A stretch of DNA of 64,000 nucleotides. Source: Paramacrobiotus metropolitanus (lineage: Eukaryota > Tardigrada > Eutardigrada > Parachela > Macrobiotidae). Made by a program: the position numbers and the translations under genes. Under the pieces are notes generated by a model that was given only the letters and a program-made list of their open reading frames with translations, ran no database searches and was not told the origin of the DNA. Where the stretch lies: positions 1,178,001 through 1,242,000 of the forward strand of contig NW_026570240.1 of NCBI RefSeq assembly GCF_019649055.1, given 5' to 3'. Shown in pieces: positions 23,691 through 58,000 of this stretch (the stretch's first letter is position 1; every line of letters begins with the position of its first letter).

Positions 23691-26600
23691 ATGGAGAGTG
23701 TTAAGGAAAACCCTACGTTATCCAGTAGCGATATGTTCTTCGCGGAGAGCGGAAGAAACTCAGGAACCGAAGAAGAAGTTCTGGCAGACTGCGAAATTCT
23801 CGAAGAAGACTTCGCATCTTCGCGCAATTCGTCTGATCATTCTCTTTTGTGTGATTCTTCATCTTGCACATCTGAAGTGAATGGAGACGATACAAGGTAT
23901 GGTAATTTGTAAAAACACCATAACAGGTACGAGGTAGTCTTCTCAAGGCTACAGGTGGGGAAGAATCTTGAAATCTTAACCCAGGTGTGCGTGCGTGCAT
24001 CGTCATTTTGTCGTGGTTATTTTTGTTGAGCAGTTAGGCATTAGCTCATTAGCACGTATTACCCACAAAATACAATTGTCTCGCTTCATGCCTTTTAAGA
24101 AATTCAGAGAAACTCACATTTCATTAATAGATGTGGAAGGTGCGCATAGCATCGTGCAGTATGTTTTTTAAACGCGGTGGATCTACTCTGTAATCGTGCC
24201 AGAACTGGATTACGAATCGCTGAGCATAGGATAAAGCGATTCGCTGTGGTCTTTCTCCAAGAGAAGTTTTCTGTACAACAAACTATAGTCAGTTACCTAA
24301 CTTTAGTAGAGGCTCCGAGCCATGGTGCATCCGATTTGGTAGGACTGAACTTTGTTTTCGTTTGCCTTGATCAGTTGAACTTGCTACTTTTGGTACTCGT
24401 GTGGGCGATCTAATGGATTAGCCACAATTAAATAATTATGAAGCAGAAGCACTGACACTGCAGCATTCATGCCTTGTCACCGTACGATGTGTCACAATAT
24501 ACGAGTATGCAATCTGATCGCGGCTTGATATTATGGCCATGGCGCGATCATCCTTTGCTTTTCTTTATAGTCAAATGGAATCATTTTACGCTTCGGAAAA
24601 CTTGTCAAATGGTCACACGGAACCGTTCTCCATGAGTCCTTCTTTTCGTGAGCTGGACGCACTTTTAGGCGAAACACCTGCAGACCTTCCGGATCCCCCT
24701 TTGAAGAAAATTGAGGATTTCGTATCAAAATCACTGGCCAAAAAGATGTCAGCCAGGCGCAATATTCGCAACGTGAAATCTCTGAAAGAACTCAATCCAG
24801 AAACGCGAAAAGCGATGGAGGAGGAGAATGCCAAAATTAGCGCAATGGAATTAGGCCAGAAAGAGGCTGTAGTAGATCTGGAGAATGAGAGCGATGACAT
24901 TGAGATAGTGGAAGTACGCAACGAAAACCGCTCCACGGGGTCGGGATTGAGGTCGGAGAATTCGGCTGCCCGCTCGAACGGGGATGTCGTATGTATGGGT
25001 AGCTATGGTGCTTATCCGTCCATCTCGTCCTTCCATTGCGATGATGCGGCCAACATTCCCGACGAGAACGGCCAGATTCTGATTAATGTTAACCGGATGA
25101 AGAGAGAGCCTTGCATTTATGTGGCTGACCAGCTGGTCCCGCATTTGCGTCCTCATCAGGTAACTGGAACACCGACATTTTTTCATAAACTTAACCTGCT
25201 TTAATTTTTTTCATAAGAACGGTACAACAGTCTGTACCTGTATATGCTAATTCACCTTGAAAGAAACCACTGATTGTCTGCACTCATCCGCAGAGTCAAA
25301 CAAACAAAACAAAATTGAACCATCAGAGCCGTCGCGAGGTCTGAGGGTAGGGCCCACAAATCCTCGCGCCAGCCGCTCCCTTTTGGAAATGCACAAAAAA
25401 TGTAGGAAGTGGTTGAAAATCCACTTCTTTATTAAAATTTTCGGCGAGCGAACGCGCTCCCTGCAGTTGTTGCCAGCATGCCCTGCGCCTTCTTCCAAAC
25501 AGCTACTTGCAGTTAACAGTAAATTGGCGTCAGTAGATTCATGAGAATGCGTTAATAATATTGATTGTGGAATAACTGATTGAGAATTATTTTCCTGCAG
25601 ATTGGCGGTATTCGATTTATGTACGCTACATTAATCGAAAGCATCAGCAAATTCACTAACAGCCCTGGGAATGGGGCTGTTTTGGCGCATAGCATGGGCT
25701 TGGGGAAGACGCTGCAAGTAATAACATTCTTGGACGCCATTTTTCGGGATACACCGGTCAAGTCGGTCCTGATCGTGGCGCCACTGAATACTATGGCGCA
25801 TTGGATGGCAGAATTCGCCAAATGGGTTCCCCCGGAAAGTCGCCATGAGAGAATGAAAGTAATATGCATTCGCGATCAGAAAGCAGCTGTGCGCAGCGCC
25901 CTAATTGAAGGCTGGTCGGAAGAAGGTGGTGTGCTTCTAATGGGTTATGAGAAACTCCGATCTATCGTCGAACAGAAAGGCGGTAAAACGGGTGGAGAAA
26001 AGGGGAAGAAAAGGAACAGAGACCATGTGGACGATGATAGTCTGTTAGTTAATGGTGCTTCCTCAGCGGCGCCCAGTACCGAAGAAGATATTGATTTGGG
26101 AGGCCAAGTGATGCAGAAATGCGAGATCATTATTTGCGATGAAGGTTTGTTTTGTCTGCGTCAAAAAAACAAATTCGTTTCCTCTGTCAGAACTGAATGT
26201 TTTTTTGTGTAGGTCACCGCATCAAAAGCGCTGGTGCAGCCATAACGAAAATCCTGAAGAAAGTTAAGACAAAAAGGTGCCTGTTGAATTTTCTTTCTGC
26301 ATGGGGAACAAGCATATAAATAGTATGATTGTATTGTAGACGATTGATATTGACGGGATATCCTTTGCAAAACAATCTCATGGAATATTGGTGCATGGTC
26401 AGTATAAAATACCTGTCGACACATTTAACAAAAACGTATGGAAAGATACGTATATGTCTAGTTCTTTTTAGTTGGCCGTTAATTCATACTCTTATTACTA
26501 AACTGTACTGTGTACGTGGAAGGCTTCAAGTCGTTTTTACTGTTCGCATTTTTCACTTGATACAGCAACTTTTTATCTGAATTTTATAATTTACACAGAT

Positions 26601-28721
26601 CGATTTTGTGAGGCCATTTCTACTGGGAAATGAGTCGGAATTCGGAAATCTGTTCAAGAATCCCATCGAAAATGGACAGTGTGCTGACAGCAGTGATGCG
26701 GATCGTCGACTAATGCGTTATCGAACCTATATTCTTCAGCGCACTCTAAGTCGCATTGTACAGCGAAGGGATTCAAGACCATTGATTGCTGAACTACCAA
26801 AAAAGCGTGAATTTGCGTTAATTTTCCGACAGACACCGGCTCAAACGAGCCTATACAAAAGTGTCTTTGAAGAATTAATCGAGCACGGGGAATCTCTGAA
26901 TGCAGTTGCGTTGTATGCAACGTTTCGCAGTATCACGCAGCATCCAGCGATCTTTTTTGCGCATGTAAAAAAGCTGGTGAACTCAGCGGTCGAAACATCC
27001 GGCCAGATTGAGGTCATGGGCCCAATTAGACAGTTTCTCGTGAACATGGTGCAGGAAGGTAAATGGGAGCGATTCCTGACGAATTACGATACCTTCAAAC
27101 ACGAGGAGATTTTAAGTGGGAAAATACTTTTTCTGAAAATTTTAATATCCGAAGCCGTGGTTAAGCGGAAGGAAAAGATCATCGTTTTTTCTCAGTCCAT
27201 TGATGTGCTGGATTATTTGCAAGAGTATTTGCCTGCTCTACTGCCGGCGCGTGATGAAAAACAGGACAGTTTTCCTGTTTGTTTTCGCATCGACGGCTCC
27301 ACTTCCAGTCACGAACGGGAGCGTATGATCAATTTGTTCAATGATGAGAACGATCCCACTCAGATATTTCTGATCTCAACGGATGCAGGAGGAATTGGTA
27401 TATGTTATTTCTCACCGGTTTAACCACATCTCATATTAGTAAAATAGTTTATTTTCAAAATTTAGCTGTTGTTTGTGAAATCTATTCATTTCTAGGTATT
27501 AACTTGACGGGAGGGAACCGGGTAGTGATTTTGGATGTGTCATGGAATCCCAGCAAAGACATTCAGGTACTTATGTGGGTAGATTTGGTTACTTACAGAG
27601 ATACGCGAAATAGACAAAAATGCTTTGTTTTATATTGAGCTGTGACCGGCGGGCGAAATAAGATTTGTTTTTACAGGCAATCAGTCGAATCTATCGATAT
27701 GGACAAAACAAGATTTCCACTGTATACCGCTTGGTGGGGGATGGCTCAATGGAGCGATGCGTTTTTGATCGGTACGTTCAGGCGTTCACGCTGTCGATAA
27801 ATATGTTTTATTGTATCGCATCATTTCCGCGATTTCATGCTCATAAATTTTTCCCACAGACAAATTCATAAGCAGTTCCTGTTCAAAAGAGTTGTCGATG
27901 ATAAGAGTCCCATGTTAGCTATCAACCAAGCCGATCTGGGTAGCCTTTTCCGGATCAATGACGTAGTCGGGCCCGAAGTCTGGCATAAGATATGCCGTTC
28001 CCCGTTTCCCGATGAAGCGAAGGAGGATGACATTCTCAGTGCGCTGGACACCAGTGACATGTTCCGTCAGTATCTTGCCGAAGCCCCGATGGTCATGGAT
28101 TCCATCCTGGAAGCTGATGACTCTGCACAACTATCTGATCTCGAGCGCCGTGAAGCTGAAGCCAATTTCCTGCGGGAAAAACGGCCAGGAGATTCTTTGT
28201 CCGCCAGCCGCAGACCTTATCATCCTATTAGCAATATTCGGCAATTTTATCCATCTCCGCAGTTTTCTGGGGGAGCGGGAATGTATCGTGCGCACATGCC
28301 CTTGCCCCATGGGAGTATGGGAATGACACAGTTTCCGGGACTGCGACCGGCTCCTCCCAAAGCCCAGCACATTCCTTTGGAGCAGGCGGTACTGGATAGT
28401 GCATTAGTAAAAGAAATCCGTGAACGGGTGGCTAAGCGAGAGGATTTTTGCGATCTCATTCAGCGCTACGCGCAACCCCTTCAAGGCCGCGTGATTCGGC
28501 ACACAATTCCCGACCCACAAGGAAATCCTTCCATTGTTTATTCACTGCATGCACCGGGTGTCGCTGCCTACACGGTTTTCAGAATGGATGGCATGGCATA
28601 CAGAATGATCAATAATAGCATGATGATGCCATCACACCCACCACCGCAGCCGATGGCCAGTTCGAGCCGATCAGTTCCGGCGGCTGACCCTGATCCCAAT
28701 GTGCCGACTCAATCTGAGTAA
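23691..28721 (+). CDS. RAD54L2: SNF2-family ATPase ARIP4 / RAD54L2, 9 exons, 1095 aa
   Basis: ARIP4 is a nuclear Rad54-like translocase and cofactor of steroid receptors. Exons: 23691-23896, 24571-25159, 25601-26144, 26213-26276, 26340-26397, 26599-27397, 27496-27566, 27677-27771, 27860-28721. The N-terminus is acidic and Ser-rich. The helicase core follows: LRPHQIGGIRFMYATLIES (Q-like start), Walker A in LAHSMGLGKTLQVITF, IVAPLNTMAHWMAEF, the Walker B box IIICDEGHRIKSAG (DEGH, as in this subfamily), LTGYPLQNNLMEYWCM, then the second lobe with EKIIVFSQSIDVLDYL, STDAGGIGINLTGGNRV and motif VI AISRIYRYGQNK. The core has an insertion of basic and acidic residues before the DEGH box. The C-terminus is proline/methionine-rich. 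The first intron is 674 bases. Vertebrate ARIP4 is about 1,460 aa; the shorter tail accounts for most of the difference. Confidence 0.93.
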
Positions 28722-41875: not shown

Positions 41876-42391
41876 CGAAATCACCGTAAAGGTGATAGAA
41901 TGCTAAGAAGAACTGGGAAAATGTCGTATTCGGTCTCTTATAACATTAAACGCACGCGATGTAATAAACACAAAACCCTGAGGAACCGGAAACGGATCCA
42001 GAAATAGGTAGTTGGCGCGCTGCTTGGTACAAGTTTGCATTATAAAGGCATATGCCGCCTATGGGAGGTTATGCATTCGTTTGTTCTGGCAGTGCAACTT
42101 TGCCGTTCGGCCTGTGCTCACTCGTTCAAGTACTTCTAAAAGACTGAAAACTCTCAGTTCTCTGGAAACTTTTCGAGTTACCTTATTTCGAAGCTTTTCT
42201 GTTCCATATAATTTGTTATTTGATATACAGTTAATTTTTGTAGGTTTATCGTATAATGAAACAAAAGACTGATAGAAGCTTACAATAGTGGAGCTGTGGT
42301 GTGGTGCCTTATACACTTTGTGTCTTCTTGGAAGTAAGGTAGCCGCTCGCGAGTCGCTACGTGCGATTTTTCAGTCGGCTGTGCAACAGGC

Positions 42392-44857
42392 ATGTCTAGC
42401 GCGGACAACGGTAGCGGTGATACCGTGATTCCTTCGAGCTGTGATGCCGGAGAAGGTTGTGCGGATACGAAAGTTCTGCCTGAAAATCTCCAACATTCTG
42501 TAAAGCGTCCTTTTTCTTTTGAAGAAGCGAATGGAAAGCAGGCCGAGAGTGTTTCCGGCTCCGATGAGTCGCAGCCTGTGGTTCCTGCAGGTGGCGAGGA
42601 AAGCGCAAAGAAACCCCGCAGAGATGATCGTGATTATCATCAGATCAAAAAGGACAATCCTCGCTTTAGGAAGTATGTGGAATCTTTGGGACTTCTACCA
42701 CCAGATCAATTAGATTTATTTTGGGAGACTGTCCGTGAACCACTGCCGACGTCGTTTCGCATCACGGGTTTTCGGCGCGACTGCGAAGCCTTCAAAGGAA
42801 TTATTAATAATCATTTCTTAGCGGGTTTACCGGAGGATGCAGCGCAGTTATGCACGGAGATTTCGTGGTATCCGGAGCAGTTAGCGTGGCAGATCAATCT
42901 CCACCGACGCCACATTAAACGCTGCGATGATTTCAAGAATTTGCGTGAGTTCATTATCAACGAGACAGCCAGCGGAAACATCAGTCGACAGGAAACTGTC
43001 AGTATGATTCCACCGCTCCTGCTGGATGTCAAACCGGGTCAGAATGTCTTGGACATGTGTGCAGCTCCGGGAAGCAAAACAGCGCAAATTGTGGACATGT
43101 TGCAGGAGGATCTTCGGATTGCTGAAAGCGACGGTACAGATTTTGTGGTTTTGCTTGATCAGTTATGGAAATTCTGCTCATATCAATTCTCATTCGCTGA
43201 TTCATTTTAGCTTACGGGTTTTCTTTAATCTGGTTTTCCGAAATTTATGGATGTAGTTTATTGAATCGTGGGTAGCCTATGTGGCAGTAACGGTACGAGT
43301 TTGATAGTTTTTCAAATGTTTGAACTTTAGCTATCAGATACTTTACCAGCGCTTGCGGCTATTTTATTTGTTAACTCGATTTAGTTCTGACTTTGTATTA
43401 CAGGGGCTCAAACCGAAGGCGAAACTCAAGGAAACGAAGGTACTTAATTTCGTGTCTGATTGGCAGCTTATCGAAGAATTGTTTTTAATTCAACTGATGT
43501 GAGATTAATTGTGATAATTTAATTTACATCTGATTTTAAAATACAATAATGTTTTTCAGAGGCGAAATTACCTAATGGATTGATTGTGGCCAACGACATG
43601 GAACTGAAGCGTTGCCAGCTTCTGACTCACCAGTTAAAGCGTCTCCAGTCTCCCTGCGTAGTGGTAACTAACCACGACGCCAGCCTGATGCCCAACGTGT
43701 CCCTGGATGGCGGCGATACGCCTGTTGCCTTTGACCGGATACTCTGCGATGTCCCCTGCAGTGGAGATGGAACTATCAGGAAAAATTTGGATTTGTGGCG
43801 GACATGGCATCCCCATAATGCTTTGGCCCTGCATCCCGTGCAGTACCGCATTCTGAAACGCGGACTAGAAATGCTGGCTGTTGGAGGCCGTTTGGTCTAT
43901 TCAACGTGCTCGATGAATCCCGTGGAGAACGAAGCAGTTATCAGTCGAGTACTAAACGAAGCCAAAACGTCGGTAGAGTTAGTGGATTGCAGTAACCGCC
44001 TGCCTGGTCTCCAGCGCAGACCTGGTTTACAACAGTGGTCGATTATGGGCGCCAATGAACAGGTCTACAGGGATTTCACGGAAGTGCCCAAAGACTTGAA
44101 AATGCGTATCCGCGTAGAGTTTTTTGCTCCGCCGAATGCGGAGACTTTGCATTTGGAGCGGTGTATGCGGGTGATGCCGCACTATCAAAATACCGGGGCG
44201 TTTTTTATCGCGGTATTAGAGAAAAAAGCCACACTTCCTTGGCAGCGATATGGCGCACTGTCACAAGTACGCGTGAAATCCCAGCGACTTTTCGAAAACG
44301 AACCGTTGGTTCAGTTTGCCACAGAGGATTCACAGACTTGGGAAGTAATTCGGAATTTCTTTCATGTGCATTCAGATTTTCCTGCCGACCAGTTATTTAT
44401 CCGAAAAAACACCCAGGAGAAGAGCCGACACATCTACTTGGTATCGAAAACAGTTAAGGATGTTCTACTGCAGAATCAGGATAAGTTACGAATTGTTAAT
44501 GCTGGTGTGAGGATTTTGACCCGTACAGGAGTTCAGGACAATTCGTGTCCGTACAGGTTGGCGCAGGAAGGACTGCATGTTTGGATGGAGTACTTGGATA
44601 TCGGTCGGATCACCCTCAATCGCGAAGAAGTCACCAAACTGATGAACAAGGATGTTATTGACTTGACTGCGCTTCGTCCGGAAACCAAACAGGATGTTGA
44701 CAAACTGCCGGTTGGGAGTGTTGTCGTGCGATATGAGAAGCCTGGTGGGATAATGTTCGAGTTAGCGGCCTGGCGCTCATCCTCCGCAATCAGGTGTTAT
44801 GTGGCGAAAGAAGAACGCGGGCATTTTCTGCGATTGTTGCAGATGGAAACAATGTGA
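42392..44857 (+). CDS. NSUN2: RNA cytosine-5 methyltransferase NSUN2, 3 exons, 691 aa
   Basis: NSUN2 methylates C5 of cytosine in many tRNAs and some mRNAs in the nucleus. Exons: 42392-43133, 43404-43439 (36 bases), 43560-44857. Visible: a low-complexity N-terminus with a basic SAKKPRRDD patch, FWETVREPLPTSFRITGF, the SAM-binding loop VLDMCAAPGSKTAQI, IVANDMELKRCQLLTHQLKR, the releasing-cysteine motif ILCDVPCSGDGTIRKN and the catalytic-cysteine motif LVYSTCSMNPVENEAV. The C-terminal part contains HIYLVSKTVKDVLLQN, typical of NSUN2. Human NSUN2 is 767 aa; the missing part is the Lys/Glu-rich C-terminal tail. The second acceptor could shift by two bases, but only the CAG/AGGCG choice keeps the frame. 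Confidence 0.95.
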
Positions 44858-45379: not shown

Positions 45380-45451
45380 CGTTTCAGCGTCATGCGTATA
45401 AGCATTTCTGGCACGGGACTGAGAAAGGGAATCAGCTGTATTGTTTATTTG

Positions 45452-46692
45452 CTATATAGATAAATCTGCTGGCAGCACTTTCCGCTTTCTTCTGTAATAA
45501 TTTCTGGAGAAACGTTTTTGTCGAGTTGGTTCCGCAATTTGTCGAGTACTTGATTCCTCCATTAAAGGGGACAAATCAAAGGGCTCGTTTTCTTGAACCG
45601 CCGATGGAAATCGACTAAAAATTGATGCCGCTTCCGGTGAAGGCGCACTTTGCAGCGCCACAACAGAATTTGGGGGAAGCAAGCTCGATAAAGCAGTTTT
45701 GTTCTGATTGTCCTGTAAAAAGCAGATTTTTTAAAAAAACGTTCATAAAAACGAGTTCCTGTACTGTAACTGTTGCAACATTTCAAAATGGTAGTGCTAG
45801 TAGTAGTTGACTATAGTAAGGTAGACGACGATAATACGGCAATACACAGTGGACAACGGACGCGTATGAATATCCCCGGATTACTTGTTGCACATGGATT
45901 GCGGATTATATCAGTATGATAATAACAACTGTAGCACCCCAAAGTAGTAAAAGCATGAAAAGCTAAATAATTTGCTTTCTGAAGACACTGGAATTCTTTT
46001 TTGTATAGAGCAATGAAAGTAGAAAAGCTAAACTCTTCGCTTCATTAATTACCACGTACGCTATAAATATCAGTTTATGGCATGTTTTATAGATGTACAA
46101 AATTAAAAAGAATTCCTAATTCTGATACGACCTTTGCAGATTTTGTGCGGACTCGAAACTGCCACTGGTTAGTTGGATGGTTTTTAAACGTCGTTTACTC
46201 TGATTTTTTTTACCGCACCGTGCTAGCTGTTACATACCGCAAAGAGTGGTGACGATCCAAATAGGTTTAAAAGAGGCTGACCAGGAGGTTCAGCACAATA
46301 TTTGGTAAGTGCGCTGATGCTGCAAGGTCTCTCGCAACATTCCTCAACAATTCCACTAGAGTCAAAAATTTCCCGCTTTCTTCTTGATCGCGTCTGCAGT
46401 GCCAGTTGCACATTTGGACCTGTAACAATTAAAACGTAATGTAATTGGAATGGAATGTAATTACAGTACATATAAGCTATCGGTGAGATCTACTTTACCT
46501 GCAGCCAGTACTCTTTTAAATTTGCTTACCTAATCTTGAGTGATATTTTCCATGACATAATAATTTAAGGGCATTTGAGAGACCGTAGCCGCAAAACCGG
46601 CGATCACCGAAAATAACCGGAAGAAAACTGACGACTGCAAGGCAAATGACCAACATCCAATCCATATATCGCGACTTCATTGTACCGAACAT
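45452..46692 (-). CDS. Insulin-like peptide prohormone, 3 exons, 201 aa
   Basis: Exons from the start: 46530-46692, 46238-46419, 45452-45712; in phase (115 + 87 codons). Order: signal peptide (MDWMLVICLAVVSFLPVIFG), B chain with FCGYGLSNALKLLCHGKY (C-x11-C, as in insulin), a very short C peptide ending in the cleavage site RSRRKR, then the A chain beginning GIVEECCERPC and ending ALTKYC (CC-x3-C-x8-C, the canonical spacing). So all six cysteines of an insulin/IGF fold are present. After the A chain a tail of about 105 residues, mostly from exon 3, contains RQKR and RRKRK sites, like an IGF E-domain. It should be secreted and act on an insulin-type receptor. ATG at 46692 or 46680 could start translation. 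A naive reading of exon 2 runs past its donor to a stop. Confidence 0.93.
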
Positions 46693-55010: not shown

Positions 55011-58000
55011 ATGGCTGATTTGCGAGCGGAAGCGAAAGCTCTCTTCGAGAAGCACTGTGAGAAGGCGTCCCGCAGCGCCGGTCCTCGACACGGGAAAAAT
55101 GCCAACTGGTCGAACTTGGTAGGACCTTGCATTTCTGCTGGCGTTGAGCAGTAATCTCACTTTGCGTGTGTTCGCCGCAGGTTATGAAATCGGGAACCCT
55201 CGCCGATCGGATCGCTGCACTGTCGCTCGCTATCAAGAAATCACCGCGGAATAATCTGCAGAATTTGACTGCCTTATCAGGCATGCTAAAGAAGAAAAAT
55301 CATCGGGAGTGTTTATTAGCGCTAGACGCATTGACATCGTTATACAAGGACGAACTCCTTCCATCTGACCGAAAATTAATCAAATTTGAAAGCGTAAGAC
55401 TCAGAATTGCCACTAACCAGTTCTGTGTTTCTTTTTTAATGATTTTCTTTACAGCAATCTCGGGACAGTTTTAGTAAACTTGGCAAGCATGAAAAAGAAG
55501 AAACCCTTGTGCAATGGTACGAAGAAGACTTGATCAAAAGCAACTATGGAGAGTTTGTTATGGAACTGGAACGTCTTTCTAAAGACCAAATCGAGACGAC
55601 TCGGTTAAAAGTGCTGGGTACGAATTTTGCTAAGTTCGTATTTAGTTATTCAGTGCCGTATTAGTTGCAGTTTTTCATTCCTGTTAATTTCAACCGATGC
55701 AGATGGCATAGACCGAGCTTAGGATCATAAAACGAATTATTTTTGAAATTAATGTTTAAATAAATAATAGTGAAATTCTTATACGATTTTTATCCCCAAT
55801 GTTGATGGTCGTACCACGTTGTACAGGTGTAGTTCACGATCTCCTGGCGGAAAAACCCGAAAAAGAGGACCACCTGCTGGCCATAATTGCGAACAAGCTG
55901 GGCGATCTGCAGAAGAAGGTTGCGGCGAAATCCTGCAGTCTGCTGATTAAACTGCTGCGGCAGCATCCGAACATGAAATCTGTTATTGTGGAGGAAATTG
56001 AGCGCCTGCTGTATCGGCCAAATGTCTCCCCGAAAGCGCAGTATTATGCCGTATGCTTCCTTATTCAAATAAAACTAAGCGACAATGATTCCGCCTTGGC
56101 CATCAAATTAGTCAAGATTTATTTTTCCCTATTCAAGGTATGTATTTTAACGCCGCCGTATATTTTTCTCAAAACTTATTATTAACTTTCTCACTAACTC
56201 ACTTTCTTTCTCACTAACTCACTAAATTTCTCACTAACTCACTAAATTTCTCACTAACTTTCTTTCTTATTAACTTATTATTAACTTTTTCATTTCTCAC
56301 TAACTTATTTTTCTCAAAAACTTATTTGTTGTGATAATAATGATGCATTTGTTTATATTTGGTCGTTTCTAGGCGGTTACTGCCATGAAGGCTACAAATT
56401 CTAAAATGCTCGGTGCCATCTTAACCGGCGTGAACCGCGCTTATCCCTTTACAAAAGGACCGCAGAGTCTTTTGGAACACATTGATACCTTTTTCCGCTA
56501 CGTCCACACGGTGTCCGCCCAGATCGGCATTCAGATGCTGATGCTGTTGTATCAGGTGATGGAGCGAGAAGGTGCGATTACGGATAGGTTTTACATGGCA
56601 CTTTACCGAAAGATGATGGATCCCGAATTGGTGTCGCATGCCGGACGGTCGTCTTCCTTATTGAATCTTATTTACAAGGCCATGAAACGCGATACAGAAT
56701 TGAATAGAATCAAAGCGTTCATCAAGAGAACGCTCCAGTTAGCCATCTCTCATTCGCCACCGTTTATCTGCGGCGCGCTGATTGTTGTTTCGGAAATAAT
56801 CAAAAATAGACCAAAAGGATTCCTTGCTACCTTATTAAGTTCTGTTAAAACCGAATCTATCGTGGACGAGACGCAGACGATGGAGGATTCAGGAAGTACG
56901 TGCCGGTTTCAGCGCGTTTCACAGTTAAAGTATTCTAATTCATAACGGACATGGTTGTTTCATCCTGCTAGAACTCGACAAGGAAGAAAAATGCCCCACA
57001 TCTTATTCGCAGACGGCTCGAAACCCTTTATACTGTGGTGCAGAGTTCACAAGTATATGGGAATTTCAAGTTTTGAGGCAACATTATCACCCTTCCGTTG
57101 CACGGTTTACGGAATGCATTTTACAGGTTTGTGATCGACTGTCGTCTGTATTTTGTGCGCATTATTGCTTGATTGTAGAAAACTGTCATTCTGATGTAAG
57201 CAACTTTTCTATAGAATCGTGAAATTGATTACGCTGGGGATCCGTTCGAAGATTTCACGTCGATGCACTTTCTGGATCGGTTTGTGTATCGGAATCCCAA
57301 GAAAAAAACCCAAGAGAATGCTAGAGATATGCCTGTGCTAAGTCAGCAGTATCTTGCATTGCCGGAAAAAGCGATACCGGACGATGAGAAATTTTTGCAT
57401 AGGTGCGAATCTGGTTGCAATTGTGCGTCTTGCTATTGGTGCAGTGATAGATAAAAATCTGTGTTTAGATACCTCACCCAAAAACTGAAAAGAAAAAGCG
57501 ATAGAATGGGCCATGAAGATGACGTGGAAAGTGTCTCAGACGATGAATTCGACAAGTTCTTAGGCAAGTTAAAGTTTTGGATTTTTAGCTTGTTCTGTGT
57601 CGCAAAAAGGCAGTTAAGGCGAATGTGGTGTACGGGTTTTATGAATTATTTAGAAGTGGTCTTTTATGGAACACCGTTTTTTACCGGTCCTCGATGCCTC
57701 TTTTTTATGGTTTATTATTATACTGATGTGATTTGCTTTGCAGATGATTACGAGCGTGATGAAGAGGACTTCGACATGGATTTCGCGGCGTAAGTCGCTA
57801 GATGCCTAAGAGTTTTTAAAGCATACTTGCATTTAGTAATTGCTGTGATTGTGTTTTTTTTTACAGGGATGTGAATGAAGAGAGAGAAGAACAAGATTCC
57901 TTGGATGATGAAATGTCACTGTTCGGGGACGACGCTGATAGCGATGACCAGACCAACGGTGATTTTACTGCCGCGGAAGAAGATGCATTGAATGCGGCCT

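Follow-up and report, generated by a model that had tools for sequence, protein, structure and literature searches.

We uncovered in a tardigrade genome a gene of three exons that encodes a secreted hormone of the insulin family, the sequence of which fits an IGF-type insulin-like growth factor and not an ordinary insulin. We apply this label because of three features in conjunction: an 86-residue tail encoded by an exon of its own, a short connecting domain that lacks a cleavage site at the B/C boundary, and best matches among solved structures to IGF-I for this gene and to IGF-II for a linked paralogue. The gene lies in the window, the 64,000-nucleotide stretch analyzed here (C20:1178001-1242000), and the genome-wide profile searches reported below covered 169,799,020 bases in 533 contigs. 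We hold with good confidence that this tardigrade gene is functional and that its product is a secreted, IGF-type growth hormone related to insulin.

Gene structure and family membership

Joining the minus-strand segments 46692-46530, 46419-46238 and 45712-45452 yields an in-frame 201-aa precursor interrupted by two GT-AG introns, as the original prediction of a complete insulin-superfamily gene with three in-phase exons had it. That prediction had staked itself on the frame surviving the joins, and it does: the exon lengths (163, 182 and 261 nt) add up to a multiple of three, and internal stops are absent. The gene is laid out as follows, in window coordinates:

46530..46692, minus strand: coding exon 1, signal peptide and B domain RRFCGYGLSNALKLLCHGKYHSRL (translation, junctions)
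46420..46529, minus strand: intron 1, phase 1, 110 nt, GT-AG (junctions)
46238..46419, minus strand: coding exon 2, C domain GPNVQLALQT-RSRRKR-EIFDSS, A domain GIVEECCERPCSISALTKYCA and start of the D/tail region EPPGQPLLNLFGSSPLFA (translation, Pfam Insulin)
45713..46237, minus strand: intron 2, phase 0, 525 nt, GT-AG (junctions)
45452..45712, minus strand: coding exon 3, 86-aa C-terminal extension (D/E-like) with stop TAG (translation; homologous exon in the paralogue)
45444..45449, minus strand: AATAAA, candidate polyadenylation signal a few bases past the stop codon (gene-strand sequence CTATATAGCAAATAAACA)

An in-frame stop immediately precedes the first ATG, and the signal peptide that follows displays a hydrophobic core, MLVICLAVVSFL, in the hydropathy profile. 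Exon 1 ends in the phase-1 donor GTAAGC; the first junction reads GATTAG/GTAAGC...TTACAG/GTCC and the second TTTGCG/GTATGT...TTTTTACAG/GAC. Intron 1, which is in phase 1 because exon 1 measures 163 nt, falls within the C domain, a position typical for insulin-family genes, and a phase-1 intron is common to insulin-like genes (PMC8286064). The precursor thus runs through MFGTMKSRYMDWMLVICLAVVSFLPVIFG, DRRFCGYGLSNALKLLCHGKYHSRLGPNVQLALQT, RSRRKR, EIFDSSGIVEECCERPCSISALTKYCA and EPPGQPLLNLFGSSPLFA into the 86-aa tail of exon 3, where FDLSPLMEE precedes two sites of the furin type, RQKR and RRKR (convertase motifs at residues 179 and 189), and ends in TRQKRFSRNYYRRKRKVLPADLSI.

The translation contains, in the predicted order, a signal peptide, the B-chain C-x11-C, the convertase site RSRRKR and the A-chain CC-x3-C-x8-C, and thereby the six cysteines that mark the superfamily. 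The joined protein also matches the insulin-superfamily profile, as had been expected of it, with 32.5 bits (Pfam Insulin, PF00049; E = 1.7e-7; curated cut-off 23), and exon 2 by itself is the best Pfam Insulin match of the 170-Mb genome (33.3 bits, E = 1.4e-5). In a six-frame translation of 157 kb of the same contig, cysteine motifs of the B and A types stand within 1 kb of each other on one strand in two places only, namely at this gene and at the paralogue. Among solved structures, the target protein is closest to IGF-I, ahead of IGF-II.

The window also holds other genes. An NSUN2-type RNA methyltransferase gene (42338-44854, plus strand; Pfam NSUN2 domains) adjoins the hormone gene on the opposite strand; exons of an SNF2-family (ATRX/RAD54-like) helicase occupy 24518-28718 (plus strand; Helicase_C), and a CBF/Mak21-family (CEBPZ-like) exon lies at 56373-56942 (plus strand). 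An Rfam scan over the window returned no matches. Lipocalin/FABP matches, weighed as a possible tardigrade marker, proved to be an ordinary fatty-acid-binding protein, which is not diagnostic.

The IGF-type layout and the linked paralogue

In the archetypal insect aIGF gene the first exon encodes the signal peptide, the B chain and part of the C domain, the second the rest of C and the A chain, and further exons a C-terminal extension with an arginine-rich part; the same study cautions that the tail goes unnoticed when the splice donor behind the A chain is disregarded (Veenstra 2020, PMC7357564). The original prediction overlooked the 86-aa tail on its own exon and with it the IGF-type layout. 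Its insulin framing holds at the level of the superfamily and fails for an ordinary insulin, given the tail exon, the single cleavage cluster and the IGF-type arrangement. The tail is a long charged extension with 12 K/R and 9 D/E residues, the basic ones clustered terminally, as is expected of an aIGF. The connecting domain is likewise aIGF-like in being short and non-excised, with RSRRKR as the sole cluster and a B/C boundary devoid of dibasic sites. It spans 18 residues from the last B-chain cysteine to RSRRKR, the last ten beginning at the exon junction. The shortness previously remarked on, for a C peptide of about a dozen residues, is normal for IGF-type peptides; the implied excision does not stand, since the one cluster lies at the C/A junction. 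A classical insulin would have two sites excising a C peptide and few residues past the last cysteine; here there is one cluster, and 105 residues follow the last A-chain cysteine. Against the IGF reading, RSRRKR within the C domain resembles insulins more than IGFs. The tail also contains neither of the two insect aIGF tail motifs, having no cysteine for the extra disulfide of the Arg-rich region and no C-terminal consensus GTVxPx(F/Y); these motifs were described for insects, and hemipteran tails are less conserved (PMC7357564). Because they are absent, we name the gene IGF-type and do not regard it as a proven aIGF orthologue.

The same plan recurs in a second gene of the contig:

C20:1096547-1095525, minus strand: IGF-type paralogue with the three-exon plan of the target, about 127 kb from it

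Its exon coordinates were derived by hand, as was the choice of its second donor, GTGCGT, which is weak. The exon translations read ...FAERKFCGTGLADTLKLLCRGKYRPRL-DSDPDGKAGDVSNSLTQECCHKACSMKTLMGYCASPP..., with the tail ...TFDVSPLLEMRPSDIYQSLPSRQR, and the introns are in phase 1 and phase 0, as in the target. With 25 bits, the joined paralogue exceeds the Pfam cut-off, and its solved-structure ranking is headed by IGF-II, followed by single-chain insulins and IGF-I. Between the two genes, the B exons share 50% identity (E = 4.7e-6; local alignment score 107 vs a shuffle maximum of 48), and the A exons align with a score of 82 (shuffle maximum 47). The tail exons score 47, a value equalled by 1 of 5000 shuffles and the highest among all stop-free frames in 90 kb, with the conservation confined to the short stretch FDLSPLME. 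With all three exons homologous in the paralogue, the target model, tail exon included, stands on more than splice guesses. As no dibasic site was found in the interval from B to A of the paralogue, its product is probably a single-chain peptide. Cysteine motifs revealed no third linked gene of the relaxin/gonadulin type in C20:1085001-1242000, a search that a divergent gonadulin could escape.

Probable hormone processing and receptor, and rival readings

From this architecture we infer a plausible course from expression to physiology. The signal peptide would take the precursor into the secretory pathway, where three disulfides would tie the B and A domains into the insulin fold. The RSRRKR site is probably a target of furin or prohormone convertases, whose cut would generate a two-chain hormone with the C domain left on the B chain. 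The released A chain would start EIFDSSGIVEECC, with EIFDSS at its N-terminus; the GIVEECC that the original prediction likened to vertebrate GIVEQCC is indeed present, but such cleavage would place the start of the chain six residues upstream of it. Cleavage at RQKR/RRKR near the end probably trims the basic terminus, a proposal modeled on the removal of the vertebrate IGF E domain by furin (PMC8286064). The hormone most likely activates an insulin-receptor tyrosine kinase, and through it growth or nutrient-dependent development; for the basic tail, possible engagement of a GRL101-type receptor has also been suggested (Veenstra 2021, PMC8286064). Two further genes elsewhere in the assembly bear on this picture:

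C207:24063-40276, plus strand: gene of the insulin-receptor type, whose exons cover L-domain, furin-like, Fn3-like and kinase regions and include YETDYYRKGGKG
C2:188848-187116, minus strand: third insulin-family precursor gene (Pfam 29.9 bits on a hand-joined model)

The first of these is the sole insulin receptor among the translated candidates of the kinase search; the others, named by eye from their translations, are an EGFR (C30), a ROS/sevenless-like (C6), a DDR-like (C2) and a Trk/ROR-like (C104) protein. The receptor exons show a GC3 of about 0.86, vs about 0.5 for the window genes and 0.37 for the target, and its introns have 26-34% GC, a composition that sets the gene apart from those of the window. 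Given this unusually high GC3 and a culture fed on Lecane rotifers, the receptor gene is possibly foreign DNA, or else a compositional outlier; the remaining ORFs of its contig have a GC3 of 0.5-0.7, so the contig is not clearly foreign. In the third insulin-family gene an N-terminal prodomain with KR at its end precedes the B chain, the C peptide is long, the A chain reads SECCLKACTISEIVGYC and a tail exon is lacking; the gene is possibly dilp7/relaxin-like. Its layout indicates that, next to the IGF-type pair, the genome contains an insulin- or relaxin-like type.

The target might instead encode an ordinary two-chain neuroendocrine insulin-like peptide, with frequent retention of intron 2 or only minor use of exon 3, so that the main product would stop shortly behind the A chain and the tail would be a by-product. 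The RSRRKR cluster and the A-chain GIVEECC agree with this, as does the fate of a transcript in which intron 2 stays unspliced: read-through of the second donor meets an in-frame stop after FAVCNS and leaves a short insulin-like precursor. However, the paralogue has a homologous tail exon at the right place, the donor and acceptor of intron 2 are good, the B/C junction offers no cleavage site, and the third gene, which has a long C peptide and lacks a tail exon, already supplies the insulin-type layout; we therefore consider this reading unlikely.

A relaxin- or gonadulin-type peptide (dilp7/dilp8-like) acting on an LGR-type G-protein-coupled receptor could be suspected from the linked insulin-family neighbor, given that arthropod IGF, relaxin and gonadulin genes adjoin one another (PMC7357564). 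Yet the B domain of the target has no relaxin RxxxRxxI motif, an N-terminal F domain is absent, its best matches are IGFs and insulins, and the linked copy itself is IGF-like and not relaxin-like, all of which makes such an identity very improbable. We give equally little credence to a decayed or unexpressed duplicate of an IGF-type gene: despite great divergence from the paralogue, the target retains an intact 201-codon frame, four splice sites, six cysteines, a signal peptide and a polyadenylation motif.

The tardigrade pair and known IGFs

Insulin-like peptides are already known in tardigrades, which are close relatives of the arthropods, and the IGF-type gene described here adds a member: Koziol (2018, Gen Comp Endocrinol 267:116) reportedly described insulin-like precursors from the Hypsibius and Ramazzottius genomes, and our search for full-text literature on tardigrade insulin peptides found none. 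What stands out is the linked pair, in which one copy bears and the other lacks a cleavage site in the C domain. The target would have arisen together with this probably single-chain, site-less paralogue. According to one proposal, shortened copies of IGFs gave rise to insulins on several occasions (Veenstra, PMC8286064), and a pair of tailed IGF-type genes, one having and one lacking the C-domain site, provides a concrete test of that idea. More speculatively, and in our estimate doubtfully, the pair could be a snapshot of insulin evolving from IGF: a single-chain tailed IGF would have been duplicated locally in tardigrades, whereupon a furin-type site was gained in the C domain of one copy, or lost from the other, and the copy with the site now yields a two-chain hormone with different receptor use. 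For genome annotation, tardigrade insulin-family genes should be checked for tail exons.

The target resembles the arthropod IGFs (Drosophila ilp6 orthologues; PMC7357564) in the partition into signal-plus-B, C-plus-A and tail exons, the intron in the C domain, the short C domain, the long C-terminal extension with a basic stretch and the local gene duplication. Unlike them, its tail has neither the extra cysteine pair nor GTVxPx(F/Y), its C domain carries a furin-type cluster, and no fourth coding exon was found in it. With vertebrate IGF-I and IGF-II it shares the succession of B, short C, A, D and E-like regions, and these are its best solved-structure matches; it differs from them in the RSRRKR of its C domain, where the vertebrate IGFs remain single-chain, and in a tail of unrelated sequence.
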